From: Gammaproteobacteria bacterium
GTDB taxonomy: Bacteria > Pseudomonadota > Gammaproteobacteria > Ga0077536
DNA: 64,000 nucleotides
Reading direction: 5' to 3'
Assembly (NCBI GenBank): GCA_021773835.1
Contig: JAJFJQ010000051.1
Location: 310,001-374,000, forward strand
Positions 1 to 20,369 of the stretch are shown one piece after another. The notes beneath the pieces are model-generated. The model was not told the DNA's origin. It saw only the letters and a list, made by a program, of their open reading frames with translations, and did not search any database. Both the position numbers and the translations under genes were made by a program. Position 1 is the stretch's first letter. Each line of letters starts with the position of its first letter.

Positions 1-861
1 GGCTAGCTCGCAACGCGACAAGGTTGCCTCAGCCGGAAATTGTCGACCGGACTGACATTTAACGGTGAGCTTGCCCGGTACCCATAAATAAGGAGCGGGT
101 TGCGCATCAACACTGAGATCGCCGATTAACCCGCGTAAGCGTGTTGGATCTTCATCGGCAAGAAATGTCCCCAATTCATGGTTTAGTAAATCGCTCTCCT
201 GGCAGTCAAATAATCGTTCTGCCGCTACGTTAATGAGTACGATCTCGAGATTGCTATTTACCGTGACTATCGCGTCCAAGGCGCAGTTAAAGACAGAGGT
301 GAGTTGTTGTTCGATCTCACGGTGCGCTGCTTCCGCCCGCATTCGTTTGAGCTCAGCGGCGGCCCGGGCAGCAAATATATTAAATAACGCGACGCCTCGT
401 GGTTCTTTCGGGGCTGGCGCGTTATTAATCATCGCGAGATGGCCGATCACTTGGCCATTGTCGTCGCTCAGTGGTATCCCCAGATAACTTCTAGCGTGAA
501 ATACTTCGAGCCCAACATCCGCCGGAAACAATGTCTGGACGTTGTCCGAGAAGTGGACGAGGGTATGGTCTCGGATCGAGATCTCACACGGCGTACCAGC
601 AAGCGGATACTCGATGTTAGGGTGTATTTTGTCGTCGCTCCAAAACGCTAGCGTGCGCAATGAGGCCCGCTCGGGTAGGTATTCGGACACCCAAGAATCC
701 CGCCACATCGTTGCGAGTGAAAGGTTTTTTACGAGCGCATCGAAGAACGGTGCGCCAGTTTCGACCGCCGTGCCTTCGAGTATCGCGCGTAAGGCGCGAT
801 CCTCGTTCCAGTCCGGTAAAGGCGATTGAGTTGTCGTGGCGGTAGCCTCAAGTTCCTTCAT
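1..861 (-). CDS. GAF-PAS sensor protein, 3' end beyond window
   Basis: The complement strand is open from an ATG at 861 to the window edge (287 codons, no stop). Residues about 30-160 form a GAF domain of the kind found in bacterial signalling proteins, with the segments YPLAGTPCE and ARSYLGIPL and a GHLAM segment near its end. A helical linker rich in Arg, Glu and Ala (about 175-200) leads into a PAS domain with TSVFNCALDAIVTVN and NVAAERLF. It reads as the sensory half of a cytoplasmic signalling protein; the output domain (kinase, cyclase, diguanylate cyclase or sigma-54 activator) lies outside the window, so the class is unknown. It is divergent from the cytochrome operon starting at 1248 and could regulate it, which is inference from position only. 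Confidence 0.85.
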   Translation of the reverse strand, partial: MKELEATATTTQSPLPDWNEDRALRAILEGTAVETGAPFFDALVKNLSLATMWRDSWVSEYLPERASLRTLAFWSDDKIHPNIEYPLAGTPCEISIRDHTLVHFSDNVQTLFPADVGLEVFHARSYLGIPLSDDNGQVIGHLAMINNAPAPKEPRGVALFNIFAARAAAELKRMRAEAAHREIEQQLTSVFNCALDAIVTVNSNLEIVLINVAAERLFDCQESDLLNHELGTFLADEDPTRLRGLIGDLSVDAQPAPYLWVPGKLTVKCQSGRQFPAEATLSRCELA

Positions 862-1247: not shown

Positions 1248-2591
1248 GTGCTTTTTTACCGCCCGGGAGTCCAGCCGTTCCGTGTTTCATGGTACGGCGC
1301 GCAGTTTCTCCGCCTATGCCGTTTCCTAGCGGTAACGCCGCTATGCGTCGCCAATGCATTGGCGGTCGAACCCTTGTCTATCCACCTTGGGGTCGCAACC
1401 TGCGCGGGAAGTAACTGCCACGGCGCAAGTAGTCCGCAGGACGGCAGCATCGTGCTGCAGAACGAGTTTCTCACTTGGCATAGAAGAGATAAGCATGCCA
1501 AAGCCTACCAAGTCTTGCACGACGAAGCGGCACAAAGAATCGCTCGCAATCTTGGTATTAGCAACGCTCACGAAGCAGCAACATGCCTGAGCTGCCATAC
1601 GGATTTCGTTGCACCGTCCGCTCGCGGGAGACGTTTCCAAATTAGTGACGGCGTTGGCTGTGAAGCTTGCCATGGCGGGGCGGAAAAATGGCTCGGCACG
1701 CATGTATCGGGCAAGGCTTCGCATGCCGATAACCTTGCCCTCGGAATGTACCCGACGAGCAGCCCCAGGCACCGGGCGAAACTGTGTCTTGGGTGCCATC
1801 TGGGCGACGCGGACCATGAAATGACCCATCGCATCATGGGTGCGGGGCACCCAAGATTGGGTTTCGAGTTAGACACGTTTACTGAAATTCAGCCGGCCCA
1901 TTTTATTCGCGATGAGGACTATCAAAAGCGTAAACCCACACCTAGACATGCCTTAATTTGGGCAACCGGACAAACGACGGTGGCGCGAAATTTACTTGAG
2001 GCAGTGCGTCGAGGCGCACACCGTACCGACGGGTTGTTTCCCGAGTTTATCTATTTCAACTGCCATAGTTGCCATCGCGCGATCTCGGGTCCGAAATCCG
2101 CTAATGCCGAGGTTTACGGGTCTGCGATAGGGGAGGTTCGGTTGGCTGATGCAAGTCTGGTAATGGTCGGCGCGCTGGTCGACGTTCTCGTTCCAGATGC
2201 GGCGCGACGCTATCACGAGAACGTCACACGACTGCATGCCAATGTTCAAAGCCGAGGCGGCGATGTAAACGCTGTCGCTAAAGAGATGCTTGATCAAATT
2301 GCGCTGGTTGATGGAAAACTTGACAGTGGGATTGACGATCACGCTGCAACGCAACTCATCGAACGGATTCTAGCCGCTGGTGCAGACGGTGCTTTTTTCG
2401 ATTACGGGCGCGCCGAACAGGCGGTTATGGCGTTGGATGCGTTACGCAACGATGGCATACAAAGTTCCATTGCAGAACAACTCGCACCAACGATCGAAGC
2501 GCTGTTTCAATTGCTGCAAGACGAAGCAAGTTTTACCGCTAGTGCAGTTGTCGACATCTTGCAGGCCGAAACGCCTGATCAAGAACATTGA
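1248..2591 (+). CDS. multiheme cytochrome c554-type protein (pentaheme)
   Basis: This 447-residue exported cytochrome begins with GTG and a hydrophobic signal segment at about 20-40 ending ANALAVEP. Heme sites visible are a CX4CH site at C52-H58 (CAGSNCH) and four CXXCH sites at C113 (CLSCH), C138 (CEACH), C180 (CLGCH) and C272 (CHSCH). The pattern, including the long first motif and the HRRDKHAKAY segment, resembles the cytochrome c554 / multiheme c family found in periplasmic electron transfer. The last 170 residues have no heme motif and are predicted helical. It opens the electron-transfer operon, with a 41-nt gap to the next gene, and probably acts as a periplasmic electron carrier or terminal oxidoreductase. 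The actual substrate cannot be told from sequence. The start is uncertain because no strong ribosome binding site is present. Confidence 0.88.
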   Translation: MLFYRPGVQPFRVSWYGAQFLRLCRFLAVTPLCVANALAVEPLSIHLGVATCAGSNCHGASSPQDGSIVLQNEFLTWHRRDKHAKAYQVLHDEAAQRIARNLGISNAHEAATCLSCHTDFVAPSARGRRFQISDGVGCEACHGGAEKWLGTHVSGKASHADNLALGMYPTSSPRHRAKLCLGCHLGDADHEMTHRIMGAGHPRLGFELDTFTEIQPAHFIRDEDYQKRKPTPRHALIWATGQTTVARNLLEAVRRGAHRTDGLFPEFIYFNCHSCHRAISGPKSANAEVYGSAIGEVRLADASLVMVGALVDVLVPDAARRYHENVTRLHANVQSRGGDVNAVAKEMLDQIALVDGKLDSGIDDHAATQLIERILAAGADGAFFDYGRAEQAVMALDALRNDGIQSSIAEQLAPTIEALFQLLQDEASFTASAVVDILQAETPDQEH

Positions 2592-2632
2592 GATCAAATT
2601 TTAAACGTTAAATGACGAGTTATGGAAAACTC

Positions 2633-5029
2633 ATGAGCGAACATTACAAAATCGCGATCATTGGGGCGGGACCAGGCGGACTAAGCGCCGGCGCTCGCGC
2701 CGCAGCGCTCGGTGTCTCCCATATCGTACTAGAAGCGTCGCCAACGATTGCAAAAACAATATCACAATACCAAAAAGGTAAGCATGTTATGTGCGAGCCT
2801 GGAATTATCCCCTTACGCAGTGAGTTAGATTTTTCAGCCGGAACCCGTGAGTCGATTTTAGATGTTTGGGCGTCCGGCGCCGATGCCTTGAGTGTCAACC
2901 TCCGCTACAACGCCGAGGTCCAAAAGATCTCAGGATGTCGTAAAGATTTTAAAATCGAGCTGCGCGACGGCGTAAACGTAAATACCGAATATATCGTCCT
3001 GGCGATAGGAGTTCAGGGCAATTTACGTCGTTTAGGGATATCCGGGGAAGACTATCCGGTCGTTCAATATCAGCTCGACGACCCTGACGAATACTTCGAT
3101 GAGAACATTGTCGTCATCGGGGCGGGCGATGCGGCGATCGAGAACGCGATCGCGCTGGCGACTCACAACGACGTCGTTATCGTCAACCGGCGCGATGAAT
3201 TCGCTCGGGCAAAACAAGGCAACTTGACCGATATCACGAAGGCGATTGAGACCAAGTTGCTTGATTGTGCATTCGGTGCGGTGCCAAAGAGCATCACGGA
3301 AATCCCCGCATCAGATAACGATAAAATATCGTATCGAATCTCGCTTGAAACGAGCAGCGGCGCTGCGGAGTTCGACTGTGATCGTGTAATCGCGCGGTTG
3401 GGCGCGACCCCGCCGCGGGCGTTTTTAACTGACGCCGGCGTTGAACTTCCAAGCGACGACCCGGCCGCAGTTCCGGCGCTATCTATTGAATATGAATCGA
3501 ATGTCCCGGGCCTTTATATCATTGGAGCGTTGGCCGGATATCCGCTGATTAAGCAATGCATGAATCAAGGTTATGAGGTTGTCGAATATATCGAGGGTCG
3601 TCATATCGATCCCGTCGATCAAGAAATTCTTTGGGAAAAGTTACGGCATATTCCCGGGGTCGCGAACGTCGATGAAGCAATAACACGAATTCAAGCTAGC
3701 GCGCCAATCGTCGCGGGATTGACTCGCCTCCAGATCCGCGAATTCCTGCTTGACAGCGACATTGTAAAGATTCCCGCTCAAGACATTGTGTTTGAGAAAG
3801 GTGATTACACGAATTCGTTCTACTCAATCCTGGACGGCGAAGTAAAAGTTGAGGTGGGCGAGCCCACGAACGATCAAGGTATTACTTTGAAGGAGGGCGA
3901 TATTTTTGGAGAGATTAGCTTGATATCGGGCCGTCGGCGCAGTGCGAGGGTCACGGCGGCCAGTGATTGTGTTCTCGTAGAAACACCGAAACGGGCAATG
4001 ACGCGGTTGGTAAATTCGGATGCCTCCGCGCGCAAGGCGATCGACGAAATATTCCTGTCACGCGTGATTGCACAGTTCGCACCGCAAGCTGATCCAGCGA
4101 TCATTGATCGGGTTGTGCGCCAGACAACCGTGGAACATTTCGCTGTAAACGAGGTGCTGTTCGCGGAGGGCGATAGCGGTGATTGTTTATTCCTTATTCG
4201 CTCGGGGTCCCTCGTTGTGTCACGCCATGTAAACGGTAAAGACATAACGTTTGCATACGTTCCTGCTGGACACTTCGTGGGAGAAATGGCGTTACTCAGT
4301 GGAGCACCAAGATCGTCAACTGTCCGTGCGGCATCGGTTACTGAAGTCATTAAACTCACAAGAGACGTTTTTAGTTTACTCCTAGAGAGTGATTCGATGT
4401 TACGCGAACGGATCCGGAAGACCTACGAACAGCGCGCCGTCGAACAACTACAAATGGTTGCTGATTCCGGTCTCGGTGACCGCTTTACCTTCTTAGTAAA
4501 TGAAGGAGTTGGTGAAGCTACCGACGTACTGCTTATCGACGAGGCTTTGTGTATCCGTTGCGACCAATGCGAGAAGGCATGTGCAGGTACGCATGAAGGT
4601 CAAACTCGACTCAATCGTACTGCCGGGCCAAGCTTTGACTACCTACATCTCCCGACGTCTTGTCGTCATTGTGAGCACCCTCACTGCATGAAAGATTGTC
4701 CTCCGGATGCGATCAGTAGGGCACCAAATGGCGAAGTATTTATTAGCGATTCGTGTATCGGGTGTGGAAATTGCGAGCAGAACTGCCCCTATGGAGTGAT
4801 CCATTTGACCAAACCTGGTGCCGTTACGCCGAGTCTATGGAAGCAGCTGCTGTTTGACACTAACGACAGCGCCGAGCCTAACAGTCCCTCACCCGATGAC
4901 GCGCCTAAAAAGGCGGTTAAGTGCGACATGTGTGTAAATCTAGCAGGCGGCCCGGCGTGTGTGCGCGCCTGCCCAACCGGTGCCGCGATCCGCATGTCGC
5001 CCGAGGAATTTTTGAAGGTGACGGCGTGA
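2633..5029 (+). CDS. FAD/NAD(P) oxidoreductase fused to two cNMP-binding domains and a 4x[4Fe-4S] module
   Basis: A large cytoplasmic redox protein of 798 residues, or 805 if the in-frame ATG at 2612 is used; 2633 fits better because the dinucleotide fold begins right after it (IAIIGAGPGGLSAG). Domains in order: a thioredoxin-reductase-like FAD/NAD(P) module to about residue 325 with a second Rossmann motif (VVIGAGDAAIENA); two cyclic-nucleotide-binding domains at about 365-460 and 480-590 (GDIFGEISLISG, GHFVGEMALLSG); and a C-terminal ferredoxin region with four cysteine clusters, CIRCDQCEKAC, CRHCEHPHCMKDCP, CIGCGNCEQNCP and CDMC...CVRACP, like the beta subunits of molybdopterin oxidoreductases. 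No CXXC active site of true thioredoxin reductase is seen. It probably passes electrons from NAD(P)H to the adjacent membrane cytochrome, possibly gated by a nucleotide; direction and ligand are inference. Confidence 0.9.
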   Translation: MSEHYKIAIIGAGPGGLSAGARAAALGVSHIVLEASPTIAKTISQYQKGKHVMCEPGIIPLRSELDFSAGTRESILDVWASGADALSVNLRYNAEVQKISGCRKDFKIELRDGVNVNTEYIVLAIGVQGNLRRLGISGEDYPVVQYQLDDPDEYFDENIVVIGAGDAAIENAIALATHNDVVIVNRRDEFARAKQGNLTDITKAIETKLLDCAFGAVPKSITEIPASDNDKISYRISLETSSGAAEFDCDRVIARLGATPPRAFLTDAGVELPSDDPAAVPALSIEYESNVPGLYIIGALAGYPLIKQCMNQGYEVVEYIEGRHIDPVDQEILWEKLRHIPGVANVDEAITRIQASAPIVAGLTRLQIREFLLDSDIVKIPAQDIVFEKGDYTNSFYSILDGEVKVEVGEPTNDQGITLKEGDIFGEISLISGRRRSARVTAASDCVLVETPKRAMTRLVNSDASARKAIDEIFLSRVIAQFAPQADPAIIDRVVRQTTVEHFAVNEVLFAEGDSGDCLFLIRSGSLVVSRHVNGKDITFAYVPAGHFVGEMALLSGAPRSSTVRAASVTEVIKLTRDVFSLLLESDSMLRERIRKTYEQRAVEQLQMVADSGLGDRFTFLVNEGVGEATDVLLIDEALCIRCDQCEKACAGTHEGQTRLNRTAGPSFDYLHLPTSCRHCEHPHCMKDCPPDAISRAPNGEVFISDSCIGCGNCEQNCPYGVIHLTKPGAVTPSLWKQLLFDTNDSAEPNSPSPDDAPKKAVKCDMCVNLAGGPACVRACPTGAAIRMSPEEFLKVTA

Positions 5030-5092
5030 TAGATACGAACGTCTACATTGAATCGATCTCAATTGCGTGTTTTTCGCGCGAAGTTTTCTACG

Positions 5093-5965
5093 ATGTATCA
5101 TTCATTTATCGTTTATAAAAAGTTCTATTACCTAAAGTGGGCCGTACTTCTTACGGCCATTTGCGTCGGACTTTATCTATGGCACGAGCCTCCAAGCGTG
5201 CCGAATGGCGGTTCGGCGCTTGGTTATCTCCTTGGTTCGATTGGGGCGGCCCTTATCGGTTGGCTAAGTTGGTTCGGTGTGCGCAAACGGTCCTATCACT
5301 CAACGACGGGGAACGTGCAAGGATGGCTGTCGGCGCATGTTTATTTCGGTTGTGCGTTATTTGTTATTGCGACATTGCATACGGGATTTCAGTTTGGTTG
5401 GAATATCCACACGCTTGCCTATGTTTTGATGGTAGTCGTCATCGTAAGTGGCTTCGTCGGCGTTGTTCTGTATCGGCTATGTCCCCGGATGATGTCCGAA
5501 GCATTGCAGCAAGCGTCTAGGCGCGAAATTCTAGAAGAACTGAATGAAACGACAGCGAATATCTTGCGACTCGCCGATGAAGTAGAGGGCGACGTACACG
5601 ACCGCGTGCTCCGTGAGAACCAAGACGCAACCGTTGGAATTCTTGCTGCTGCCTCGCGTGAGGATTCCGGTGCGCAGGCATATACCGGTAACAAGCACAG
5701 TCGCAAAACCGGCATTCGAAATAGCGACGATTTAAGCGATCACCTATACCGTGAACTGTCCGGTACGCAGAGCCCAGAGGCGGCGAATACAATTCGGGCG
5801 CTGCTTTCACAGCTCGCACATAAACGAGAATTAACTGGACGTATCGGCCGCGAAGCCGCGCTGAAAAATCTCCTTACGATTTGGCTGTTCATTCACGTCC
5901 CGATGAGCATCGCTTTAATTGCGGCGCTGATTATTCATGTCGTCGCTGTTTTCGCCTATTGGTGA
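5093..5965 (+). CDS. membrane b-type cytochrome-like protein
   Basis: An integral membrane protein of about 290 residues. The frame extends back to a TTG at 5048, but the ATG at 5093 gives the more natural start. It has about five hydrophobic segments, four in the first half and one at the C-terminus, separated by a charged soluble stretch of some 110 residues. Candidate axial heme b histidines lie inside membrane segments: H82 and H96 in the third segment, and H268 and H282 in the last. This resembles four- or five-helix cytochrome b electron-transfer proteins but I cannot name a family. It lies between the cytoplasmic FAD/Fe-S protein and the FHA-decaheme protein (3-nt gap), the right place for a subunit carrying electrons across the inner membrane. 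Confidence 0.75.
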   Translation: MYHSFIVYKKFYYLKWAVLLTAICVGLYLWHEPPSVPNGGSALGYLLGSIGAALIGWLSWFGVRKRSYHSTTGNVQGWLSAHVYFGCALFVIATLHTGFQFGWNIHTLAYVLMVVVIVSGFVGVVLYRLCPRMMSEALQQASRREILEELNETTANILRLADEVEGDVHDRVLRENQDATVGILAAASREDSGAQAYTGNKHSRKTGIRNSDDLSDHLYRELSGTQSPEAANTIRALLSQLAHKRELTGRIGREAALKNLLTIWLFIHVPMSIALIAALIIHVVAVFAYW

Positions 5966-5968
5966 CCA

Positions 5969-7648
5969 ATGCGCTGGCACATTCGACGAATTACGCGGCG
6001 CCACAAGCTTGGAATTTCTCACGAAGACATTGAGCTTGATGTTGACCGTATTCGTTTCGGCCGCGGCACCGACGTTGATGTTCATCTACCGGACTTAACG
6101 GTCGCACTACATCACGCAGAGTTTTCATATCTTAATAGCTCAACGGTGGCATGCATTACGCAGTCACGCGCCGGTATATGGCATCGCGGCGTTAACGTTG
6201 GCTACGCTGAACTCGCGCTCAACGAATACGTGTACATCGGACGTTACAAAGTAACGTTCATTAAGTCCGAATCCTTGGCCGACGTTGCACTCGAGATTGA
6301 GTCGACGCACATTCAGTACGCGAGTATCCAGGACCCACAAGCAAAGCGCTCTGTGCAGTCGAAATTTACCAAAAGGCGACTCGCGTTTTGGGCGAGTGCT
6401 GCAATTATCGTGATGTTTTTAATTCTCCCCGCCACCACCTGGATAGACCCACACTGGCGCAACATTTTGCGCCGCCTAGACTTAGTAAGCGACGCAGCCT
6501 GGAATAGTGGGCCGCTTTCAAGCGCCCATCACATTCTGGCGTCGCGCTGCGAATCTTGCCATACCAAGCTTTTTCGCCGCACGCAGAATAGTTCGTGTAC
6601 CCATTGCCATGACGATACGTTTAGCCATGCTTCCGGTAGGGACACTGAGGAACGCTGCGGCAGTTGCCACCGAGAGCACAATGGAGCGATCAGCTTGGTC
6701 GAAACCGATGCGTCAGATTGCACGCGATGCCATTTGCAAATTCAACAAAGCAAACCAAAATCGTCCCTCGCCGTCGTCGGCGATTTCGATATCAACCATC
6801 CACAATTCAGTGTTGCTCTGCCTGGAGCCGATGGGCGGATCATCCGAACCCGGCTTGCGAGTGACGCGGTGTTATCCGAGCACTCCGGTCTTATTTTCAA
6901 TCATCAAGCCCATTTAGACCCGAATGGCTTAAAGGTCGGCGCAGGAATCGAACAGCTTGAATGTAGTGACTGTCACCGGCCCGTCGTGAACGGCACAAGC
7001 ATGCAGGCAGTCCGTATGGAAGAAGCGTGCCAAAGGTGCCATCGGCTCGATTTTGATGCGGCGACGACCCAAGAGTTGCCGCATGCCGATGGTGAGGTGG
7101 TATTGCGAAGTTTGCGCGAATTTTATGCAATTCAGGCGCTCTCTGGCGGCTACACATCTTATGTGCGAAGTCCTTCGTTATCAACGGACGAGGTGAGTAC
7201 GATTTCGTCCCCAGCACCGATGGTTCCGGATTTTATTAAGCGGCGCCGGCCGGGCGTGTCCCTCAGTGAGCCCGATCGAATAGCAGCGCATCGCTGGGCG
7301 AATGACATGACGAAATATGTGGCCGAAGAAATCATCCGCTACCGCGCCTGCGGCAAGTGTCATGAACTGACGCTTGGGAATAATCACGAATTGCCGCAGG
7401 TCAAGGCGGTTCGCATTCCCGCCGACTGGATGCCGGCCGCGGAGTTCAATCACGCGAAACACGAAACGATGGCTTGCGGCGACTGCCATATGGCGCAATC
7501 TTCAAATGATAGTCGTGATGTTTTGTTGCCGCGTATAGAGATGTGCCGCGAATGCCATGGTGGGAATGTCGCCACTACTCGAATTCAATCGGTGTGTAGT
7601 GACTGTCATCGATACCATAGCGTCGATCAGATCGCCGTGCAGAAATGA
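5969..7648 (+). CDS. FHA domain-TM-decaheme cytochrome c3-type fusion
   Basis: A 559-residue protein joining a signalling domain to a cytochrome. Residues about 10-98 form an FHA domain (FGRGTDVDVHLPD followed by LHHAEF), which in known proteins binds phosphothreonine and is cytoplasmic. A single transmembrane helix spans about 138-157. The rest should be periplasmic and contains ten CXXCH motifs: CESCH (C194), CTHCH, CGSCH, CTRCH, CSDCH, CQRCH, CGKCH, CGDCH, CRECH and CSDCH, in a cytochrome c3-like arrangement. It has no cleavable signal peptide, so it should stay anchored in the inner membrane. Tight packing with both neighbours (3 nt each side) says it is co-translated with the cytochrome b and the beta-barrel. 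It may bridge electrons from the inner membrane to the outer-membrane barrel, with the FHA domain docking a phosphorylated partner. Confidence 0.9.
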   Translation: MRWHIRRITRRHKLGISHEDIELDVDRIRFGRGTDVDVHLPDLTVALHHAEFSYLNSSTVACITQSRAGIWHRGVNVGYAELALNEYVYIGRYKVTFIKSESLADVALEIESTHIQYASIQDPQAKRSVQSKFTKRRLAFWASAAIIVMFLILPATTWIDPHWRNILRRLDLVSDAAWNSGPLSSAHHILASRCESCHTKLFRRTQNSSCTHCHDDTFSHASGRDTEERCGSCHREHNGAISLVETDASDCTRCHLQIQQSKPKSSLAVVGDFDINHPQFSVALPGADGRIIRTRLASDAVLSEHSGLIFNHQAHLDPNGLKVGAGIEQLECSDCHRPVVNGTSMQAVRMEEACQRCHRLDFDAATTQELPHADGEVVLRSLREFYAIQALSGGYTSYVRSPSLSTDEVSTISSPAPMVPDFIKRRRPGVSLSEPDRIAAHRWANDMTKYVAEEIIRYRACGKCHELTLGNNHELPQVKAVRIPADWMPAAEFNHAKHETMACGDCHMAQSSNDSRDVLLPRIEMCRECHGGNVATTRIQSVCSDCHRYHSVDQIAVQK

Positions 7649-7651
7649 CCA

Positions 7652-9391
7652 ATGGCACAACGGCATAGATCGGTATCGCAAAAAATAGCGTTAACGTTAT
7701 TGTTGACGCTATCGGTCGGTATATCGGCGCAAGACCGCCGTCGCCCTGGCATTAGCGCACCCCGCACCGACGCCGCACAATTATCCGATCCGAACGCGTC
7801 GTCGGGCCTGGGTTACTTGGCGGCCGACACGCGTGCAACACGAAGCGATTTCGTGGCCTTACCGGATCGATGGCGGTTGACCAAGGACCTCGGCCTGGTC
7901 ACGGAAAGATGGTGGGATCCATACAATCGCAACATTCTAAAAGCCGATAGGCCGTTTTACTCCGACTGGTTTTTGGACATAAGCGTGCTTGCAGACTCAA
8001 AACTCAAAGCCCAGCGGAGCCCGACGCGAACGGACGCGGTGGGTCTGTCACGACCTGGAATTCGGCGCGCTGATCTAGGGCGACAGCAATGGTCCTTTGC
8101 GCAAACCTTGTTTGCGAGCGCCACGATCTTCAAAGGCGAAACCCTTTTTCGACCGCCGCAATGGCAGCTGCACGCAGGCGCGGCGATCAACTACTCGACG
8201 CTAGACGTAGGAGCCCGTGGGGTAACGCACGTGCGGCCACGCTCGAGTAGCACCCGTAGCGATGTTTCGATCGGTCTACAATCACTGTCGCTGCGCCGTC
8301 ATTTGCGAACGGTCTCCGCCAACTATGATTTCGATGCAATAGAGATTGGCGTGCAAGCGCTAAATCTTGATCCCCGCGGCTTCGTATTCTTTGATAATGC
8401 GCTAGCCGTGAGACTGTTTGGCACGCGTGATTCGAACGTTTGGCGATACGGGATCTCGTGGGCGCGCCGCTTCGAAAAGATCACCGACAGCGGTCTGAAC
8501 GATACGGCATTACGTGACGAAGATATCATCGCCGCAAATGTTTACCGGCAAGATTGGCCACGCAATGGATTGCGAACGTCAATCTCCTATTTGCACCATC
8601 GTGACCGGGAGTCCGGCGTTTATGTGGACGACAACGGATTTCGTGTACGCCCATCCCCTGCGATGACCGGGGGGGGAGAAAAGATTGTCGTGAGCTATTT
8701 GGGCTTGGGTACAGAGGGTCCCATCAATCGGCTTAACGTATCGGCGTCTCTTTACAAGGCTATCGGGTGGGTCTCAGGAAGCCAACTCGCGGAGGAGGAT
8801 ATCGACGCCTGGTTCGCCGCGGTCGAGCTGTCAACCGATATCGATTGGACTCGCATCCGCGCTTCTCTGCTGTTCTCCAGTGGCGATACCTCGGCGTCGG
8901 ATCGTGATCGCAATGGATTCGATGGGGTATTCGACAACCCGTTATTCGCGGGTGCAAATACGAGCTATTGGATCGGCGAATCGATCCCGCTTTTGGCTGG
9001 TCCGAGGTTATCGCTCAGTCGACAGAACAGCTTAATACCGTCGTTGCGCGCGCCCGGTCCGCACGGCCAATCGAATTTCGCTAATCCTGGCTTGATACTC
9101 GCCGGCGTTGGTGCGGACCTTGATGTATTACCGACCTTACGGATGGTACTGAATGCTAATCGGCTCGATTTTCATAATACCTCCTCGCTGGAGCTTGTCA
9201 GTGGACTCTCGGATATCGACCGTGGACTTGGTTGGGACCTGTCGGGCGCATTGATCTTCAGACCCTTGCTGTCACAAAACGCCGTCGTGCGACTCTCAGG
9301 TTCGATACTCATCCCTTCTTCTGGTCTTCGTGCGTTGGCCGGGGACAATATGTACTACGCGGTACAGGCAAATGTGCTGCTGCGTTATTAG
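7652..9391 (+). CDS. outer-membrane beta-barrel (porin-like) protein
   Basis: A 579-residue exported protein with a signal peptide (ALTLLLTLSVGISAQ). Beyond about residue 110 the sequence alternates polar and hydrophobic residues in many strand-like segments rich in aromatic and Arg residues, and it ends NVLLRY, with the C-terminal aromatic typical of proteins inserted by BAM. No heme motif is present. It sits between two decaheme cytochrome genes and overlaps the next gene, which is the arrangement of porin-cytochrome conduits where the barrel sheathes an electron-transfer protein across the outer membrane. There is no close resemblance by eye to MtrB, so family membership is inferred from context and topology rather than motif. 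Confidence 0.8.
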   Translation: MAQRHRSVSQKIALTLLLTLSVGISAQDRRRPGISAPRTDAAQLSDPNASSGLGYLAADTRATRSDFVALPDRWRLTKDLGLVTERWWDPYNRNILKADRPFYSDWFLDISVLADSKLKAQRSPTRTDAVGLSRPGIRRADLGRQQWSFAQTLFASATIFKGETLFRPPQWQLHAGAAINYSTLDVGARGVTHVRPRSSSTRSDVSIGLQSLSLRRHLRTVSANYDFDAIEIGVQALNLDPRGFVFFDNALAVRLFGTRDSNVWRYGISWARRFEKITDSGLNDTALRDEDIIAANVYRQDWPRNGLRTSISYLHHRDRESGVYVDDNGFRVRPSPAMTGGGEKIVVSYLGLGTEGPINRLNVSASLYKAIGWVSGSQLAEEDIDAWFAAVELSTDIDWTRIRASLLFSSGDTSASDRDRNGFDGVFDNPLFAGANTSYWIGESIPLLAGPRLSLSRQNSLIPSLRAPGPHGQSNFANPGLILAGVGADLDVLPTLRMVLNANRLDFHNTSSLELVSGLSDIDRGLGWDLSGALIFRPLLSQNAVVRLSGSILIPSSGLRALAGDNMYYAVQANVLLRY

Positions 9392-12300
9392 ATTGCTGCT
9401 CCTCGGTCTCGCGATGGCCATGCCGTCAACCGGTATCGCCACGTCTACGGTCGGTGGTGGCGCGCCGGCGCAACAAACCGCGAGTGAGGTGCAAGCAAAG
9501 AGTGTCGGATGTATGAGTTGCCACCACACCACCGACCAGCCGAGTATGCACGCGAACCCTGCGGTATTGCTGGGTTGCAGTGATTGCCATGGCGGCGATC
9601 CAAGTGTTGTTGTTGCAAATGGCGTCGAGGGTGCAAAATACGACACTGCGAAACGGCACGCACATGTGGAACCGCGGCTGAAATCACTCTGGGGTTATCC
9701 GTCGAATAGCGCAAATCCACAGCGGACCTACGCTGCTCTCAATCGAGAAAGTCCGGCGTTTATTCGCTTTATCAACCCCAGTGATTATCGGGTCGCGCGA
9801 GAATCTTGCGGCGCCTGTCACGAGCAGCAGATTGAGGCCGCAACACGGAGCTTGATGGCAACAACCGCGATGCTCTGGGGCGGCGGTGCCTACAACAACG
9901 GATTATTGCCATTTAAGCGGTATGTCTTAGGCGAGGCGTACACCCGCGATGGCTTACCTGCGGCAATTCTTGCAGCGGATCCGGTAACCGATGCGATGCG
10001 TGCCAAAGGCATTCTCGAGCAGCTGTATCCACTGCCCACCTGGGAGAGTTCGCGACCGGTCGATATTTTCCGCGCTTTCGAGCCAGGCGGGATCAATGCG
10101 GGGCATCTATTTCCGCCAACGGCCCTACCAAATATAAGCGGAACGCTACAATCGCTCGACGAACCCGGAAGACCCGACATACGTCAATCGAACCGGGGGC
10201 CGGGGACAGGATTGCGGATCGCGACGCCGGTGTTGAATATCCACAAGACCCGGCTGAACGATCCGACTACTTGGTTTCTAGGGACGAATGACAACCCAGG
10301 CGATTTTCGACACTCTGGTTGCGCCGCTTGCCATGTCGTTTACGCGAACGATCGCGATCCGCGACATGCCGGCCCGTACGCTAAATTTGGTCATCGTGGG
10401 GAGACAGATACGGCCGATCCGACGATTCCGTTAGACGAACCGGGACATCCACTCAAGCACACGTTTACGAACGCAATTCCCACGAGCCAGTGCATCGTTT
10501 GCCACATGCACCAGCCAAACGTCTTCGTGAATAGCTATCTGGGCTACACGATGTGGGATTATGAATCCGACGCGCCGAGCATGTGGCCGAAAGAACAGCG
10601 TTACGAGACAAAACACGATTTGAAGCCAGGACAAAAGGTCGACGAGAAGAATATTCTTGGAGCCGAGCGTGTCCGTGAGATCCACGACAGAAATCCTGAG
10701 GGCGCCGTCGCGCGAGGATTATGGTCAGACCTAGAGTTTCTGTCATCTGTGAGCGAGAAAAACGAGGATCGTACAGCGACCCAATTCGCGGATTATCACG
10801 GCCACGGCTGGAACTTTCGTGCGATCTACAAGCGCGATCGGGATGGGAGCTTACTAGACGCGACCGGCGCCGAGGTTGCGCACGACGATCCGAAAAAATT
10901 CGATAAAGCAGTGCATTTATCCTCGCTGCACCTGGACGTCGGCATGCATTGCGTTGACTGCCATTTTGCACAGGATGCGCATGGAGCTGGCCATTTGGTG
11001 GGGGAGGTGGCGCAGGCAGTGGAGATCGAATGTCAAGATTGCCACGGAACAACCGGCGCCTATCCGACATTGAGGACCAGCGGGCCGAGTGCACCGGCGG
11101 GTGGATCTGACTTGAGTGCTTTACGCACGCCAGACGGCCGCGCGCGATTCGAGTGGCGCGGTGATGCGCTGTATCAACGCTCGGCGCTGTGGCCAAAACG
11201 CGAATGGCGACTGTCACTGGTGAAAGACAGCATCGATCCATCTCACGCCGAATACAATCCTTTGGCGACCCGCGCCAAGACCATTACAAACGATCTCAGT
11301 ATGCGCTGGGGGCCTGGAGTCGATCCAAAGTCATACGCACATGGCGACACGGAGATGACATGTTTCTCTTGCCATAGCGCATGGATGACCAGCTGTGGCG
11401 GTTGCCACCTGCCAAGCGAAGCGAATTGGAGAACCCCGTCGCACCATTACAACGATGAGCAGACACGCGGATATGCGACCTACAATCCGCAGGTCGTGCG
11501 TGATCAAATGTTCCAATTAGGGCGGCACGGGCCCGCGAAAGGCGGCCGCATCGCACCGGTTCGTTCGTCTTCCGCGTTGATACTATCTTCGACTAACGCC
11601 AACCGCGATAAGGTGTATATCCAACAACCACCCATTTCGGCGAGTGGCTATAGCGCGCAGGCGTTTGCACCACACTTCCCTCATACCGTACGTAAAACCG
11701 AGACGAAAACCTGCAGCGACTGTCACATATCAGATCAAAATGATAATAATGCGATCATGTCCCAGCTGCTATTGCTAGGGACGCAATTTGTAAATTTTAT
11801 TGGCTACAACGCGTGGGTCGGAACGGAATCGGCGCTCAATGCCGTGCAAGTTACCGAGTGGCAGGAGCCGCAGGCGGTGATCGGTAGCTATTTGCATCGC
11901 TATGCCTATCCGGATTGGTGGAAGCGCCACCGTGATCGCGATCTTGTACTCGAGACGGTACATCGTCGTCGAACACGAGGGTCGGTTGGATGCCTGCAGT
12001 TGCGTGGTGAGTACCTGTACGTCGCCCAAGGAACGCGCGGCATGCAGGTCTATGACGTCCATGCAATCGCCAACAAATCGTACTCTCAACGTATAAATGG
12101 TGCACCTTATTCCGCACTTGGCTACGACACTCGGATCGAATCGAAAGATGCGGCCTGCGTTATTTTGCCAACGACACAGCCGATTCACCCGAATCGCCGT
12201 AACGAAGCAGCGTTCGGTCTTAGCGGCGAGGACATGGCCACCCTCATGAGTGTTACTAATCAGGAGCAGGCCTTTCATCCGATTTACAACTACGCGTTGA

Positions 12301-13238
12301 TCGTCGATCGCATCGAAGGATTGATACTGGTTGATATCAATACGCTGGCCGATGGTGATCCGCAAAATAATAAAATGACCAGAGCATTAACTTGGAACGT
12401 GGATAATGCGTTGCACGGTGCTCAGCACATAAGCCTCGGCGGCCACTACGCCTATATCACGACGGCGAGTGAGTTGATCGTGCTTGACCTGGATCAGCCA
12501 CTGCAACCGAGACTTGCAAGCCGGATCAAGTTCGATGATCCGATCGCAAGCGCGGTGCAGTTTCGATACCTCTTCGTCTCGGACCGCCAAGGGCTGCATG
12601 TCGTTGACATTACCGTACCTGACGAAGCACACCTGGTGAACGATGCGAGGGTTGAACTGAACGAGGCGGGGCGGATACACATCGCACGGACCTATGCGTA
12701 CGTCGCCAACGGTGCCGAGGGGCTCGCGATCATTGATGTAACCCGCCCAGAAAAACCCCTGCTGGTACAGAATTTTGATGCGGACGGCGAACTCAACGAT
12801 GTGCGAGACGTTGTCGTCGCGTCAACCAACGCAAGTTTGTTCGCTTACGTGGCAAACGGGGTTAATGGCCTGGCGGTACTCCAGCTTACGTCACCGACAT
12901 CGCAACCGAAGTTCTACGGATTCTCACCGGAACCGCGCCCACAGCTAATTGCAAGACGTGAGACGAAAAGCCCGGCCGTGTCACTCTCAAGAGGATTGGA
13001 ACGTGATCGGGCGGTAGATGAATCAGGCCATCAGATTGCGGTATTCGGTCGCATTGGCTCCCGTCCGTTCAATCTAGAGGAAATGCATTCTCTGTATCTG
13101 AATAAGCGAACAAACAAGGTATGGACGGTTACCGACGCGATGGAACAAGATCACTTCGTGCTAAAAGAAACAATGCCGCCGTCAGGCACGGGCGCGAACG
13201 TCGCACCAGCGCGAGAGCGTCGACGCCCAGGTGATTAG
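9372..13238 (+). CDS. exported decaheme cytochrome with C-terminal LVIVD-type beta-propeller
   Basis: A 1288-residue protein. The ATG at 9372 is preferred over 9330 because a signal peptide follows at once (RLLLLGLAMAMPSTGIA); it overlaps the barrel gene by 20 nt. Ten CXXCH motifs occur across the first 800 residues: CMSCH, CSDCH, CGACH, CAACH, CIVCH, CVDCH, CQDCH, CFSCH, CGGCH and CSDCH. From about residue 870 to 1180 there are at least five repeats of the LVIVD kind (GMQVYDV, GLILVDI, ELIVLDL, GLHVVDI, GLAIIDV, GLAVLQL), which build a beta-propeller in other proteins. Being exported and coupled to an outer-membrane barrel, it is the best candidate for the surface or outer-membrane terminal cytochrome. 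The propeller could bind a substrate, a partner or the cell surface. It is the last gene of the operon. Confidence 0.9.
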   Translation: MCCCVIRLLLLGLAMAMPSTGIATSTVGGGAPAQQTASEVQAKSVGCMSCHHTTDQPSMHANPAVLLGCSDCHGGDPSVVVANGVEGAKYDTAKRHAHVEPRLKSLWGYPSNSANPQRTYAALNRESPAFIRFINPSDYRVARESCGACHEQQIEAATRSLMATTAMLWGGGAYNNGLLPFKRYVLGEAYTRDGLPAAILAADPVTDAMRAKGILEQLYPLPTWESSRPVDIFRAFEPGGINAGHLFPPTALPNISGTLQSLDEPGRPDIRQSNRGPGTGLRIATPVLNIHKTRLNDPTTWFLGTNDNPGDFRHSGCAACHVVYANDRDPRHAGPYAKFGHRGETDTADPTIPLDEPGHPLKHTFTNAIPTSQCIVCHMHQPNVFVNSYLGYTMWDYESDAPSMWPKEQRYETKHDLKPGQKVDEKNILGAERVREIHDRNPEGAVARGLWSDLEFLSSVSEKNEDRTATQFADYHGHGWNFRAIYKRDRDGSLLDATGAEVAHDDPKKFDKAVHLSSLHLDVGMHCVDCHFAQDAHGAGHLVGEVAQAVEIECQDCHGTTGAYPTLRTSGPSAPAGGSDLSALRTPDGRARFEWRGDALYQRSALWPKREWRLSLVKDSIDPSHAEYNPLATRAKTITNDLSMRWGPGVDPKSYAHGDTEMTCFSCHSAWMTSCGGCHLPSEANWRTPSHHYNDEQTRGYATYNPQVVRDQMFQLGRHGPAKGGRIAPVRSSSALILSSTNANRDKVYIQQPPISASGYSAQAFAPHFPHTVRKTETKTCSDCHISDQNDNNAIMSQLLLLGTQFVNFIGYNAWVGTESALNAVQVTEWQEPQAVIGSYLHRYAYPDWWKRHRDRDLVLETVHRRRTRGSVGCLQLRGEYLYVAQGTRGMQVYDVHAIANKSYSQRINGAPYSALGYDTRIESKDAACVILPTTQPIHPNRRNEAAFGLSGEDMATLMSVTNQEQAFHPIYNYALIVDRIEGLILVDINTLADGDPQNNKMTRALTWNVDNALHGAQHISLGGHYAYITTASELIVLDLDQPLQPRLASRIKFDDPIASAVQFRYLFVSDRQGLHVVDITVPDEAHLVNDARVELNEAGRIHIARTYAYVANGAEGLAIIDVTRPEKPLLVQNFDADGELNDVRDVVVASTNASLFAYVANGVNGLAVLQLTSPTSQPKFYGFSPEPRPQLIARRETKSPAVSLSRGLERDRAVDESGHQIAVFGRIGSRPFNLEEMHSLYLNKRTNKVWTVTDAMEQDHFVLKETMPPSGTGANVAPARERRRPGD

Positions 13239-13263: not shown

Positions 13264-13902
13264 TTACCGCCCTAGCTCATCGACGAGTTGTTCGGTCGTG
13301 ACCTGTCTGCAATAACCCCGAATCGCGCGTAGCGACGCTTCGTGACGCTCGGCGGTGTAGGTCGCGCACGCGTCCGTTACCTGTGTCACGAGGTAACCCA
13401 GATCACAGGCATCGCGTATCGCCGACTCAACGCATTGATCCGTCACGACACCGCTAATGACCAACTGCCGGATGTTTAGGTTGCGCAAAACGTAATCGAT
13501 GTGTGTGGAGACAAAAACAGACGACGAGCTCTTGGGTAAATGTATCTCGTCCCCTTCGGGTGCGATGGCGTCGATGACGCGCGCATCCCAAGACCCCTTC
13601 GGCACATTGAAGCCTGTGATTTTGTAATCGAGGCTACGATCGCGTCCGTCCAAGGTCAAACTTTCGATAGTCGTATACATGACCTCGATGCCGGTATCGC
13701 GGCAGGCTCGTTGCAAGCTTTGCATATTTGGTACGACCACCGTGTCGAGCAAGGTGAAATATTCTCCATAAGTCCGATTACGCTCGGCAGCATTCAAATC
13801 TTTGAATTCTCCGCCGTCCGGCCGCACACAAAAATTCTGTACATCGATAAACAATAGTGCTGACTCGCTCGGAACCAAAGGCAAGTCTCGGGTCAGTGTC
13901 AT
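13264..13902 (-). CDS. isochorismatase-family cysteine hydrolase
   Basis: A 212-residue enzyme of the isochorismatase-like fold, which hydrolyses amides, isochorismate or related bonds through an Asp-Lys-Cys triad. Visible residues are D20 in LLFIDVQN, a Lys in LPKSSSS, and the nucleophile Cys in VVTDQCVESA, followed by the usual DACDLGY segment. The start at 13902 is chosen because a longer frame (to 13956) would run into the divergent gene and has low-quality sequence. It is head-to-head with the glutamine synthetase-like gene, only 66 nt apart, suggesting shared control and a joint role in nitrogen compound breakdown. The substrate is unknown. Confidence 0.85.
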   Translation of the reverse strand: MTLTRDLPLVPSESALLFIDVQNFCVRPDGGEFKDLNAAERNRTYGEYFTLLDTVVVPNMQSLQRACRDTGIEVMYTTIESLTLDGRDRSLDYKITGFNVPKGSWDARVIDAIAPEGDEIHLPKSSSSVFVSTHIDYVLRNLNIRQLVISGVVTDQCVESAIRDACDLGYLVTQVTDACATYTAERHEASLRAIRGYCRQVTTEQLVDELGR

Positions 13903-13968
13903 TTGAATTACTCGCACTCGTACAAAGACACATTGATAATAACTCTTTTGAACCAAGGATTACCTGGA
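13903..13968. promoter_or_regulatory. divergent promoter region
   Basis: Only 66 nt separate the divergent isochorismatase-like and glutamine synthetase-like start codons, so promoters for both must lie here or overlap coding sequence. A purine-rich AAGGAT element about 8 nt before the ATG at 13969 fits a ribosome binding site. No clear operator was recognised. Confidence 0.45.
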
Positions 13969-15282
13969 ATGATTCATGAACCGCTTGTGTTTGCAGCCAT
14001 CTCCGATGTCGCGGGAAAAGTGCGCGGCAAGGCGTTTCCACTGATTGATCTTGAGCAACGGCTTCGAAGCGGCATCGGCTGGACACCAACCAATGTGCAG
14101 ATCACCTGTTTTGATGTGATCACACAATCGCCGTATGGGTCGTTCGGAGATCTCATTATGATGCCCGATCCGGATACCGAGGTTCGAGTCGATTACGATG
14201 ATGGTCGACCGGCCGAGCATTTCATACTGAGCGGCCTCCAAAACCTCGATGGTTCTCCGTGGGAGTGTTGTACGCGCCATATCCTTAAAGCCGCGCTAGT
14301 CGAGCTGGAGCGCGTTGCGGGAATCACGGTAATCGCCGCGTTCGAGCACGAGTTCCAATTGACCACGGCGATGCGCCCGGCCGGTGACGCCTATTCGTAT
14401 ATTGGGTTTAGCGATCAATCGATTTTCTTATCGACCTTAACGGCAGCCTTGCGCGAAGCGGGACTCGATCCCGAATGCGTGATGAGGGAGTACGGCGCCG
14501 ATCAATATGAAGTTACTGTACGCCCTGAGCCAGCGCTAGCCGCGGCGGATACCGCGGTGGTGTTGCGCGAGCTAACCCGAACGACCGCAACGCGATGCGC
14601 ACAAGCGGCCACATTCACGCCCATCCGAGAACCGTCCGGCGTCGGCAATGGGGTGCATATTCACTTGAGCTTTCGCGACGCAGACGGTCGCCCAGTGACG
14701 TACGACGCTGATGGAATTGGCGGCATGTCGGCGATCACTGCGTCGTTTGTCGCCGGTGTGTTACGCGATCTCGACGCACTCGTCGCGCTAACGGCGCCGA
14801 GTGTTATCTCGTATACGCGCCTTACGCCGCACCGTTGGTCCGCCGCATTCAATAACGTCGGCGTTCAGGACCGCGAAGCGGCGATTCGGATCTGTCCGGT
14901 CAATGAAGCGAGTGAGCATTCGATTGCCGATCAATTTAACATCGAGTTTCGTGCTGCGGACGCGGCTGCCAGCCCACATCTTGCATTAGCGGCAATTGTT
15001 CATGCCGGCTTGGAGGGCATTAAAGACCGCCTGCCCACGCCTCCACTGGTCGACGAAGACCTATCACTGCTCGGTACACAAGCCTTGGCTTCACGCGGCT
15101 TGCAACGGTTGCCTACGTCGCTCGCCGATGCAATCGAGTGCTTTCGCCGAAACGAGCGATTCGCCAATGCCCTACCGGGCGATTTCGCGGAGATCTATCG
15201 CCTGCATAAAACCGGCGAAATCGATTACGTCAAAGATATGAATAGCGAGCGACTTTATGCGGCTTACGGGTCCGCATATTGA
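13969..15282 (+). CDS. glutamine synthetase family protein
   Basis: A 437-residue member of the glutamine synthetase superfamily, which ligates an amine or ammonia to a carboxylate (usually gamma of glutamate) using ATP. Diagnostic segments include AAFEHEFQ (metal and ATP site), GNGVHIHLSF, HRWSAAFNN, and FRAADAAASPHLALAAIVHAGLEGI split over the usual C-terminal region. The length is near that of gamma-glutamylpolyamide and GlnA-like ligases rather than dodecameric assimilation enzymes with the adenylylation Tyr, which I do not see. The frame opens at a TTG at 13903, but the ATG at 13969 has a ribosome binding site. It is probably a catabolic amine or amide ligase working with the divergent hydrolase. 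Confidence 0.88.
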   Translation: MIHEPLVFAAISDVAGKVRGKAFPLIDLEQRLRSGIGWTPTNVQITCFDVITQSPYGSFGDLIMMPDPDTEVRVDYDDGRPAEHFILSGLQNLDGSPWECCTRHILKAALVELERVAGITVIAAFEHEFQLTTAMRPAGDAYSYIGFSDQSIFLSTLTAALREAGLDPECVMREYGADQYEVTVRPEPALAAADTAVVLRELTRTTATRCAQAATFTPIREPSGVGNGVHIHLSFRDADGRPVTYDADGIGGMSAITASFVAGVLRDLDALVALTAPSVISYTRLTPHRWSAAFNNVGVQDREAAIRICPVNEASEHSIADQFNIEFRAADAAASPHLALAAIVHAGLEGIKDRLPTPPLVDEDLSLLGTQALASRGLQRLPTSLADAIECFRRNERFANALPGDFAEIYRLHKTGEIDYVKDMNSERLYAAYGSAY

Positions 15283-15339: not shown

Positions 15340-16218
15340 CTATTCTCGATCCAACCATGCGCCTTCGAGGCCACCTAGACTTTGCATGGCATTGAGCGTT
15401 GCCATCGCGTCTTCTCGACTGGCGAATTGCGCTTGGCTGACATGGAACCAGCTCCGGCCACCGACTTGCAGTTCAGTGATCGTGGCACTGTAGCCGGCCT
15501 CACCAAGCCGGTCGACGAGCGCAATTGCGCTCGCTTCGTTGGTGTGGGTTGGGAGATGCAGCACGACCGTGCCACCGGCTTTTTGTATCCCAGCTCCCGC
15601 TTGGGGTTCCGTCTCTTGCGCCCATATTGCGAGTTCGTCCGGATTGACTGGTCCAATCGGATCGGGCGCTTCGCCGCGTGGTGCCATGAACAAGCTCATG
15701 GGCTCGTCGAGTTGAAAGGTCTCGCCTTCGCGATCGAGTTCCACTGCACCTTCCAATAAGACTACGAAATCTCGGGAGTCCTCCGCTTTACCCCATACAT
15801 CGGTTCCGCGGATGCCCACGGTGACGGTGCGCAATTGCACCGCGATGTCGCGTTGGCGGAGCTTGCCGATTGCAGTCGTGGTGAAGCGAAACGCGCCTTT
15901 GAGTACATCGAAGAATGCGACAAAGACGCCATCTGCGGTCTTGCCGTCATCGATCAGCGACACTTCAAAATCGGCCTCGGCGCCGAGTTTTATCCGGCTA
16001 TCCTCTCCGAGGCGGAGGATCACCCGACTATTGGCGGCTGTTTCTATGCGATCGCCTTCCATCAGTTCGGCGCCCAGTGCCAACGGCATTCGCGCCTCGT
16101 CGCGGATAAGCCAGGCCGGGGCTTGCAATAGCTCGACCCCTGCAAGTGGTGCAGCATGTAGCGCAGATGCCGACATGAAGACAACAATCGAACAAGCAAA
16201 AAGTTGAACGCAACGCAT
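15340..16218 (-). CDS. exported FecR-domain protein with C-terminal SPOR-like domain
   Basis: A 292-residue secreted protein. The ATG at 16218 is chosen because AGGAG lies 8 nt upstream; an upstream GTG overlaps that site. The signal peptide ends near SASALHAAP. The FecR-type domain occupies about 40-160 (ALGAELMEGDRIETAANSRV and the VTVGIRGTDVWG segment). The C-terminal 75 residues carry a SPOR-like repeat (GTVVLHLPTHTNEASA and the ATLNAMQSLGG region), a fold that binds denuded peptidoglycan at division sites. It is therefore a probable periplasmic peptidoglycan-associated protein, not a sigma-factor regulator, since no membrane anchor or cytoplasmic domain is present. Confidence 0.8.
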   Translation of the reverse strand: MRCVQLFACSIVVFMSASALHAAPLAGVELLQAPAWLIRDEARMPLALGAELMEGDRIETAANSRVILRLGEDSRIKLGAEADFEVSLIDDGKTADGVFVAFFDVLKGAFRFTTTAIGKLRQRDIAVQLRTVTVGIRGTDVWGKAEDSRDFVVLLEGAVELDREGETFQLDEPMSLFMAPRGEAPDPIGPVNPDELAIWAQETEPQAGAGIQKAGGTVVLHLPTHTNEASAIALVDRLGEAGYSATITELQVGGRSWFHVSQAQFASREDAMATLNAMQSLGGLEGAWLDRE

Positions 16219-16285
16219 AATGCCCACTCCTAGATCAATTATTATTCGTCTTGATTCTAACCGGGAATTGATCGTCTAAGTACCG

Positions 16286-16741
16286 CTAGGTGCGGCTATG
16301 CTCGATTCCTTCGCGGATCGCGGCGACGAATCTCTCGCCCATCGAATCTGCCATCTTGCGCATAACACCGGCGGCGAATTTCCCAAGGCGCCCAGAGATG
16401 GTAATGTCGGAGGTGTATTGAACGGATGATCGATCCGGCGTCAATGTGCTTACTTCGAGCGTACTTTTGGCGCTGACCCGACTGGCCTTTCCACCCTCGT
16501 CTCCTTGCGTCTTATAACTCGCGAACTGTGGCGGGCGCTCTTCGGTGGCGGTTACCGTGACGTGGAAGGTGGTCTTGATCGGGCCTGCCTCGACCTTGAT
16601 CGCCGCGCGGTATTTCCCCGGTCCAACGACCTCGACGTCGTCGCAACCGGGTATACAGGGCCCAACCTTGTCGGGATTGGTGATGAAGTCCCACACGGTG
16701 GCTTGTGCGGCATCGATTGTAAATTGTTTTTCAATCTTCAT
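16286..16741 (-). CDS. CoxG-like SRPBCC family protein
   Basis: A 151-residue protein of the CoxG/SRPBCC fold: it starts MKIEKQFTIDAAQATVWDF, followed by a CIPGCDDVE segment, a GRYRAAI-like strand, and ends with a long helix (MRKMADSMGERFVAAIREG). CoxG proteins accompany molybdenum hydroxylase operons and help membrane recruitment or maturation. The start at 16741 overlaps the end of the large subunit gene by 11 nt, so it is translationally coupled as the last gene of this operon. Some homologues have a C-terminal membrane tail, which is absent here. Confidence 0.85.
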   Translation of the reverse strand: MKIEKQFTIDAAQATVWDFITNPDKVGPCIPGCDDVEVVGPGKYRAAIKVEAGPIKTTFHVTVTATEERPPQFASYKTQGDEGGKASRVSAKSTLEVSTLTPDRSSVQYTSDITISGRLGKFAAGVMRKMADSMGERFVAAIREGIEHSRT

Positions 16742-19510: not shown

Positions 19511-19518
19511 GTCGGCCC

Positions 19519-20367: not shown

Positions 20368-20369
20368 GA

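Follow-up and report, generated by a model that had tools for sequence, protein, structure and literature searches.

A recurrent six-gene multiheme cytochrome cluster with an AlgE-like barrel in Proteobacteria: a possible NAD(P)H-fed outward electron chain

What is the role of an outer-membrane barrel that is encoded between two decaheme cytochromes, in one cluster with a flavoprotein of NAD(P)H type? This question is raised by six genes, lettered A to F in their order on the DNA, in a 64,000-nucleotide stretch from a gammaproteobacterium of the lineage Ga0077536 (assembly GCA_021773835.1, contig JAJFJQ010000051.1, positions 310,001 to 374,000 of the forward strand), which is called the window throughout. 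The original prediction, made from the letters of the window, took the cluster for an extracellular electron-transfer conduit. We tentatively favor another reading, to which we give somewhat less than an even chance: B, C, D and A would form an outward electron chain to F that is fed by NAD(P)H and carries a cyclic-nucleotide switch, and E would serve as a channel.

All six open reading frames are present and intact on the plus strand, with short gaps or overlaps, as had been claimed. Since the alignments favor later starts over the longest frames, B probably starts at ATG 2633 rather than at 2612, and C probably at ATG 5093 rather than at 5048, which leaves a B–C gap of 63 nucleotides. For F an alternative start at ATG 9372 may apply, in which case the overlap with E is 20 instead of 62 nucleotides. 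The motif count also agrees with the 25 c-type hemes predicted before. D and F contain ten CXXCH motifs each and A contains four, giving 24, and A has in addition one CX4CH motif (CAGSNCH at residue 52), whose C52, C57 and H58 do not vary among the 13 A proteins aligned.

Loci with Alpha-, Beta- and Gammaproteobacteria in their titles carry the gene set as well, so that it is not a chance arrangement. In a sample of 58 genomes of relatives, the own genome included, E was found in nine, and F adjoins E in all eight other than the own one; the expected conserved synteny was thus borne out. In 398 genomes drawn evenly from the phylum, again with the own one, E is present in 12, F in 11 of those, and a strong match to C (E-value below 1e-98) in each of the 12 genomes with E. 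In the one genome where E lacks a partner F (G208), the contig breaks off about 330 bases past E. Apart from this contig end, no barrel was found without cytochrome neighbors in the sample, an arrangement that had been named as speaking against a conduit. In three of the 12 genomes (G450, G403 and G268) C and F are on different contigs or separated by over 600 kb, so the inner module (A to D) and the outer module (E and F) are kept together without linkage.

For a census of gene order we used the best 80 of at least 586 stretches that matched an alignment of F in a scan of genome contigs. F identities and complete clusters are biased upward in these 80 loci, whereas the figures from the 58 genomes and those for E and C in the 398 were obtained without selection by F. 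E and F share a strand in 79 of the 80 loci, and the exception is found at a contig end. A seventh gene, X, is carried by most relatives examined and stands between D and F in 58 of the 62 loci that have D and E upstream on the F strand. Among the 41 loci with 8.5 kb on both flanks, 39 contain all genes from B to F, and 27 have A in addition; A is not always near the cluster. Two loci (L075 and L095) have none of A to D in the stretch covered. Some gene calls were greedy longest frames, which can hide genes (the E of L129 is masked by an antisense frame); the census used six frames.

B (2612..5029) has a length of 805 residues and is predicted to be a cytoplasmic protein that combines an NAD(P)H-type flavoprotein (Pyr_redox_3, E-value 4.6e-29), two cyclic-nucleotide-binding (CNB) domains (cNMP_binding, 6.7e-38) and a ferredoxin part for four [4Fe-4S] clusters (Fer4_11, 1.3e-10). 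All 16 aligned proteins share its 16 cysteines, which form four groups. The same holds for E434 and R443 in the first cyclic-nucleotide pocket, the Glu and Arg that usually hold the cyclic phosphate, and for the Arg of the second. C (5048..5965), a predicted inner-membrane cytochrome b, shows only a weak Pfam match to cytochrome b561, below the cut-off, and contains two WX3HX13H motifs and SGXXG; W93, H97, H111, W279, H283, H297, G135 and G138 are invariant in 16 of 16 proteins and S134 is nearly so. In D (5969..7648) an N-terminal FHA domain (PF00498, 3.2e-5) is separated by a hydrophobic helix at residues 138–156, presumably its one transmembrane helix, from a periplasmic decaheme cytochrome part (PF14522, cytochrome c7/c3, 6.3e-15). 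A (1248..2591) is a c554-like pentaheme cytochrome (PF13435, 1.2e-9) that is predicted to be exported. From these domains we infer that B would pass electrons from NAD(P)H via FAD and the four [4Fe-4S] clusters to C, that C would take these through the inner membrane to D with its membrane anchor, and that D, with A as a carrier, would hand them to F. The part from B to D is the firmest of the chain. An NAD(P)H-type module of the cluster's own, as originally proposed, is supported as part of a probable trans-inner-membrane chain.

Is this inner module new? According to the description of PCC3 and PCC4 by He et al. (2017, PMC5566968), the inner-membrane proteins of both carry two WX3HX13H motifs and SGXXG, and C agrees with this pattern. 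PCC4 is similar in two more respects, since its subgroup II has an Fe-S gene (pfam13247) upstream of the cytochrome b, as B with Fer4_11 directly precedes C, and since it combines 4-heme and 10-heme periplasmic cytochromes, to be compared with A (four CXXCH and one CX4CH) and D (ten). In the locus L137, which is PCC4-like by composition and not by accession, profile comparison relates A to the 4-heme protein (hhalign probability 98.5), C to the inner-membrane protein (97.8) and D to the 10-heme protein (98.9 over 164 columns). The composition is thus not as foreign to described systems as had been supposed: A, C and D are homologous to PCC4-like parts and F, as discussed below, to ExtM. The differences are that the present cluster has no separate 5-heme cytochrome and no third small cytochrome, and that its Pyr_redox part is fused to the CNB part, whereas the NAD(P)H flavoprotein of L137 is separate and of FAD_binding_6 type (FAD_binding_6/NAD_binding_1/Fer2). 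L137 further encodes a 5-heme protein and, as a candidate porin, a protein of 459 residues, and its 10-heme protein is without FHA. E does not match this candidate porin, a single sequence whose porin role was assigned by us. Membership in PCC4 was rejected, as a separate 5-heme protein is missing and F is present.

Weaker matches to C occur in 11 further genomes of the 398, nine of which were examined (G078 and G082 were left out). Three of these relatives (L133, L134 and L137) encode a 3- or 4-heme A-like protein, a CNB and Fe-S protein that matches the second half of B only, C, and a 10-heme D-like protein. E, F and X gave no match in six frames in any of the nine loci, of which the contigs of L130 and L133 end soon after D, and neither E nor F was detected elsewhere in these genomes at the limits used. 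Thus, the inner module has a broader distribution than the outer module. A fused B–C protein with a 9-heme cytochrome is found in L131 (7350-13156) and L132 (3052-8146), where the stretch covered contains none of E, F and X; the 9-heme cytochrome of L131 carries FHA, and both loci perhaps represent a stand-alone inner-membrane module. L136 (9694-12391) resembles PCC3 in its arrangement, with a 24-heme protein after a C-like cytochrome b. A 10-heme 'Forkhead-associated protein', given no further comment in the main text, was found in 27 of 87 genomes of a Gallionellaceae study (PMC10734462), and we infer that it is D-like.

That A, C and D are homologous to PCC4-like components also speaks for the opposite direction of electron flow. 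Conceivably, an outside donor is oxidized and its electrons enter via D and C, with quinone or NAD(P)+ as the acceptor. The hosts of PCC4 include iron oxidizers in the account of He et al. (PMC5566968), which is in line with such an uptake, and the title of the Haliea locus L047 assigns it to a metagenome-assembled genome (MAG) from a biocathode. The organotrophic hosts Steroidobacter, Duganella, Limnobacter, Parahaliea and Sphingobium count against uptake, as does the fused NAD(P)H-type flavoprotein because with it the outward flow would be downhill. We regard electron uptake as improbable.

In the outer module, E (7652..9391) is a predicted outer-membrane barrel. An AlphaFold2 model from one sequence has a mean pLDDT (predicted local distance difference test) of 78.6 and 18 strands of at least 10 residues; residues 1–68 are mostly poor, and the loops at about 410–470 are of middling confidence. 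The top Foldseek match is AlgE (E-value 3.8e-16). Superposition on AlgE by VIA gave a Z score of 27.8 and a root-mean-square deviation of 3.1 for 362 aligned residues with 14–15% identity, with Occ/OprD channels close behind; these share the barrel fold with E, but cytochrome neighbors are found only on the side of E. MtrB is not among the structure matches listed for E, an absence that carries no evidential weight. No Pfam family matched E, and a PDB sequence search returned chance-like matches only. AlgE has 18 strands and MtrB 26. E is modeled as an AlgE-like channel rather than as an Mtr-type sheath. With 18 strands and AlgE as best match, a multiheme wire threaded as in MtrCAB is not indicated, and the strand count suggests a barrel without room for a cytochrome. 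E would then admit or release a substrate or product of F.

The same fold match has led us to consider export of a polymer or small molecule with redox modification, in which E exports an anionic product that is modified by F and a lipoprotein, X. In addition to AlgE as best fold match of E, a weak Pfam match to Alginate_exp in three of 36 E members and the three HbpS-like domains of X would fit this idea. However, similarity of fold is no proof of substrate, and no polymer-synthesis gene was found among the scanned neighbors, in a scan that identified a minority of the recurrent ones. We rate such an export as the least probable of the explanations considered here.

F (9330..13238) is predicted to be an exported decaheme cytochrome with a C-terminal LVIVD propeller (E-value 1.2e-17; a cytochrome c7 match lies just below the cut-off). 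Its cytochrome part matches the NCBIfam model of ExtM in 31 of 31 members, with a best E-value of 2.6e-23. The F of the window reaches 63 bits, and with the cut-off at 800 its status as an ExtM equivalog was rejected; the homology is clear all the same. In comparison with an ExtM-like 12-heme protein, hhalign gave a probability of 99.9 over 482 columns, which is the whole cytochrome part, and on inspection by eye each of the ten heme motifs of F is aligned with a heme motif of that protein. No kinship with the 5-heme protein of L137 was detectable (probability 25 over 36 columns). A fold search with F yielded propellers of many kinds and was uninformative on function, and a PDB sequence search gave chance-like matches only.

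ExtM, with 12 hemes, belongs to the Geobacter cluster extHIJKLMNOPQS, described as a selenite/tellurite cluster, where loss of the porin gene impaired selenite/tellurite reduction and not Fe(III) citrate reduction (PMC5877670). An ExtM-type cytochrome is paired with a porin and a cytochrome b in both gene sets. The protein itself differs, because ExtM has 68 kDa and thus no room for a propeller, whereas F combines ten hemes with one. For A, C, D and E there were no matches to Ext-named families. Sequence conservation is consistent with a catalytic role of F, which is the most conserved part: relative to the window, identities are 60–65% for F (30 relatives), 37–42% for E, 44–54% for B, 34–45% for C, 32–39% for A and 26–36% for D. 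Although these loci were mostly picked by F, eight loci picked by E show the same order, with 55–61% for F over the part covered and 35–44% for E. In the reading preferred here, F would be an ExtM-type terminal oxidoreductase of decaheme-propeller architecture at the outer membrane.

In a true porin–cytochrome conduit, by comparison, D or A would dock on or in E, and F would sit outside and pass electrons to minerals, humics or other solids. The pairing of E and F across genomes, the 25 predicted hemes, the kinship of the inner module with PCC4-like loci, and the predicted export of F, whose invariant histidines would suffice to make all ten hemes six-coordinate, are all compatible with this. 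It is nevertheless unlikely in our estimation, as E with its 18 AlgE-like strands is narrower than the MtrB barrel with 26, and F is unusually well conserved for a surface cytochrome. Moreover, F seems to be without a lipid anchor, unlike MtrC and OmcA: a lipobox-like N-terminus, as detected by a simple pattern and not by a signal-peptide predictor, occurs in three of 79 F proteins. The original proposal therefore stands in part. The trans-inner-membrane chain, the synteny and the E–F pairing remain, while a wire through the outer membrane is not indicated by the modeled strand number and by AlgE as the best solved match, and a place of F at the surface fits poorly with the scarcity of the anchor pattern.

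The family models of the Mtr, Mto and Pio systems lead to a similar picture. Decaheme proteins beside a barrel are common to them and the present cluster, but A and D score 18.4 and 20.2 bits with the DmsE/MtrA-family model (cut-off 192.2), where F is not listed, and the MtrC-type surface decaheme model PF22113 gives 15.7–18.7 bits with a cut-off of 30. Pfam holds an MtrB/PioB family, and it is not among the Pfam matches (E-value up to 0.01) of 36 barrels. With scores far below the cut-offs, Mtr/Mto membership was rejected. A cluster of Leptothrix cholodnii, in which a 24-strand porin lies beside a similar inner-membrane protein (PMC5566968), may correspond to the present set. In the open-access literature, no paper was found that names or describes the gene set (subscription papers and preprints were outside this scope). 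Judged by sequence, the cluster is porin–cytochrome-like in composition and falls outside the definitions of Mtr, PCC4 and ext.

How would the flow be controlled? A cyclic nucleotide bound to B may act as the switch, and in many lineages phosphothreonine may do so by way of FHA, either in D or in a neighboring protein. The usual GR of the FHA domain, as read from the alignment, is kept in 11 of 17 D proteins and lost in four (L011, L057, L060 and L068), and in two the domain is absent. A PP2C-like gene lies near the cluster in at least 12 of the 80 loci (four checked with Pfam) and a protein with two FHA domains in at least seven (all seven checked), both being lower bounds because greedy frames can hide genes. 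All four loci with the lost GR have a PP2C gene and an FHA gene nearby (that of L057 recognized by a match to the D model and by sight), as if the phosphothreonine switch had moved from D to a neighboring FHA protein. Two Pfam-checked neighbors (L031 and L073) are adenylate/guanylate cyclases, and in both Sphingobium plasmids viewed a phosphoesterase, annotated as CpdA in one, stands beside D.

The gene X encodes three HbpS-like domains (PF03928) in three of three scanned proteins, and a lipobox-like N-terminus was recognized in 41 of 61 complete cases. In the window, where the D–E gap is 3 bases, X is missing. It was not found in the rest of the window's genome either, where three small single-domain HbpS-like proteins occur instead, nor in L028, L059, L068 and L082 of the 80 loci. 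A search of the window's genome with PF14537 gave no match.

Several observations weigh against the reading preferred here. F contains 13 invariant histidines outside the CXXCH motifs, so that second ligands are possible for all ten hemes, as would fit a plain wire. The model of F is poor outside the propeller, and as its cytochrome part is of no use (mean pLDDT 57), no active-site heme can be named. PCC4 is drawn by He et al. (PMC5566968) as a chain running inward, to the quinone pool. E shows no homology to two porin-like neighbors of ExtM-like genes, each compared as a single sequence. With the FHA domain missing in two and its usual Arg lost in four of 17 proteins, phosphothreonine control through D is not general, and in the window's own flank no signaling gene of the kinds named above was found, only a partial GAF/PAS-like gene. 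That the cluster stands for a widespread NAD(P)H electron export in Proteobacteria, many of them aerobes, for a second-messenger switch inside a dehydrogenase and for a new ExtM-propeller terminal enzyme with an AlgE-like channel is, when taken as a whole, less likely than not.

Multiheme electron transfer has mostly been studied in metal reducers and oxidizers. Here, an intact set for 25 hemes with a gene content conserved over three proteobacterial groups is found in hosts such as Steroidobacter, Parahaliea, Limnobacter and Sphingobium, which are aerobes. If electrons do flow outward, aerobes would have an unrecognized sink or tool for reducing power, and if the CNB domains do act inside the dehydrogenase, a second messenger would be linked directly to electron flow. 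The combination of a PCC4-like inner part, an ExtM-like cytochrome and an unrelated barrel suggests that envelope electron systems consist of exchangeable modules, which makes it unsafe to predict function from cytochrome counts alone.

The titles among the 80 loci include Steroidobacter, Parahaliea, Haliea, Limnobacter, Duganella, Nevskia, Nitrosomonas, Oceanibacterium and Desertibaculum. A quick tree built from 89 F proteins groups the window's F in a pair with the F of a Methylococcus MAG (L019, support 100). Four F from the family of the window's genome fall into a single clade (support 99), surrounded by mostly betaproteobacterial sequences. The two loci of this family that are long enough (L014 and L018) have the order C-D-X-E-F-A-B instead of A-B-C-D-E-F. 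The tree suggests horizontal transfer; old duplication with loss may also account for it. Thirteen plasmid records (12 Sphingobium, one Sphingopyxis) have one place that covers at least 80% of F, and the two Sphingobium plasmids viewed carry A-X-E-F and D-C-B on opposite strands. On a Sphingobium plasmid (L099, 464-8617) the region upstream of the cluster contains a transporter annotated for two-partner secretion and a gene of 6.3 kb. Five loci on MAG contigs (L088, L063, L046, L058 and L062) are titled Klebsiella pneumoniae, Marinimicrobia, Vicinamibacteria or Bordetella parapertussis; their F groups with that of other environmental Proteobacteria, and the titles are possibly wrong or the contigs misbinned.

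Immediately upstream of the cluster in the window, and diverging from it, lies a partial gene (1-861, minus strand) for a possible sensor, in which a GAF domain and PAS-like matches were recognized. Just past the cluster, at 13264-15282, an isochorismatase-family gene on the minus strand has a frame that overlaps the start of a glutamine-synthetase-family frame on the plus strand, and a protein with FecR and SPOR domains follows at 15340-16227 (minus strand). Two large subunits of molybdenum hydroxylases (xanthine/CO dehydrogenase family) are encoded at 16286-20403 and 54081-56396, the former with neighbors that were named by sight as apparent genes for a 2Fe-2S subunit and an FAD subunit and as a CoxG-like gene. 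A di-heme protein of the cytochrome c peroxidase/MauG family is encoded at 41071-42270 on the minus strand.

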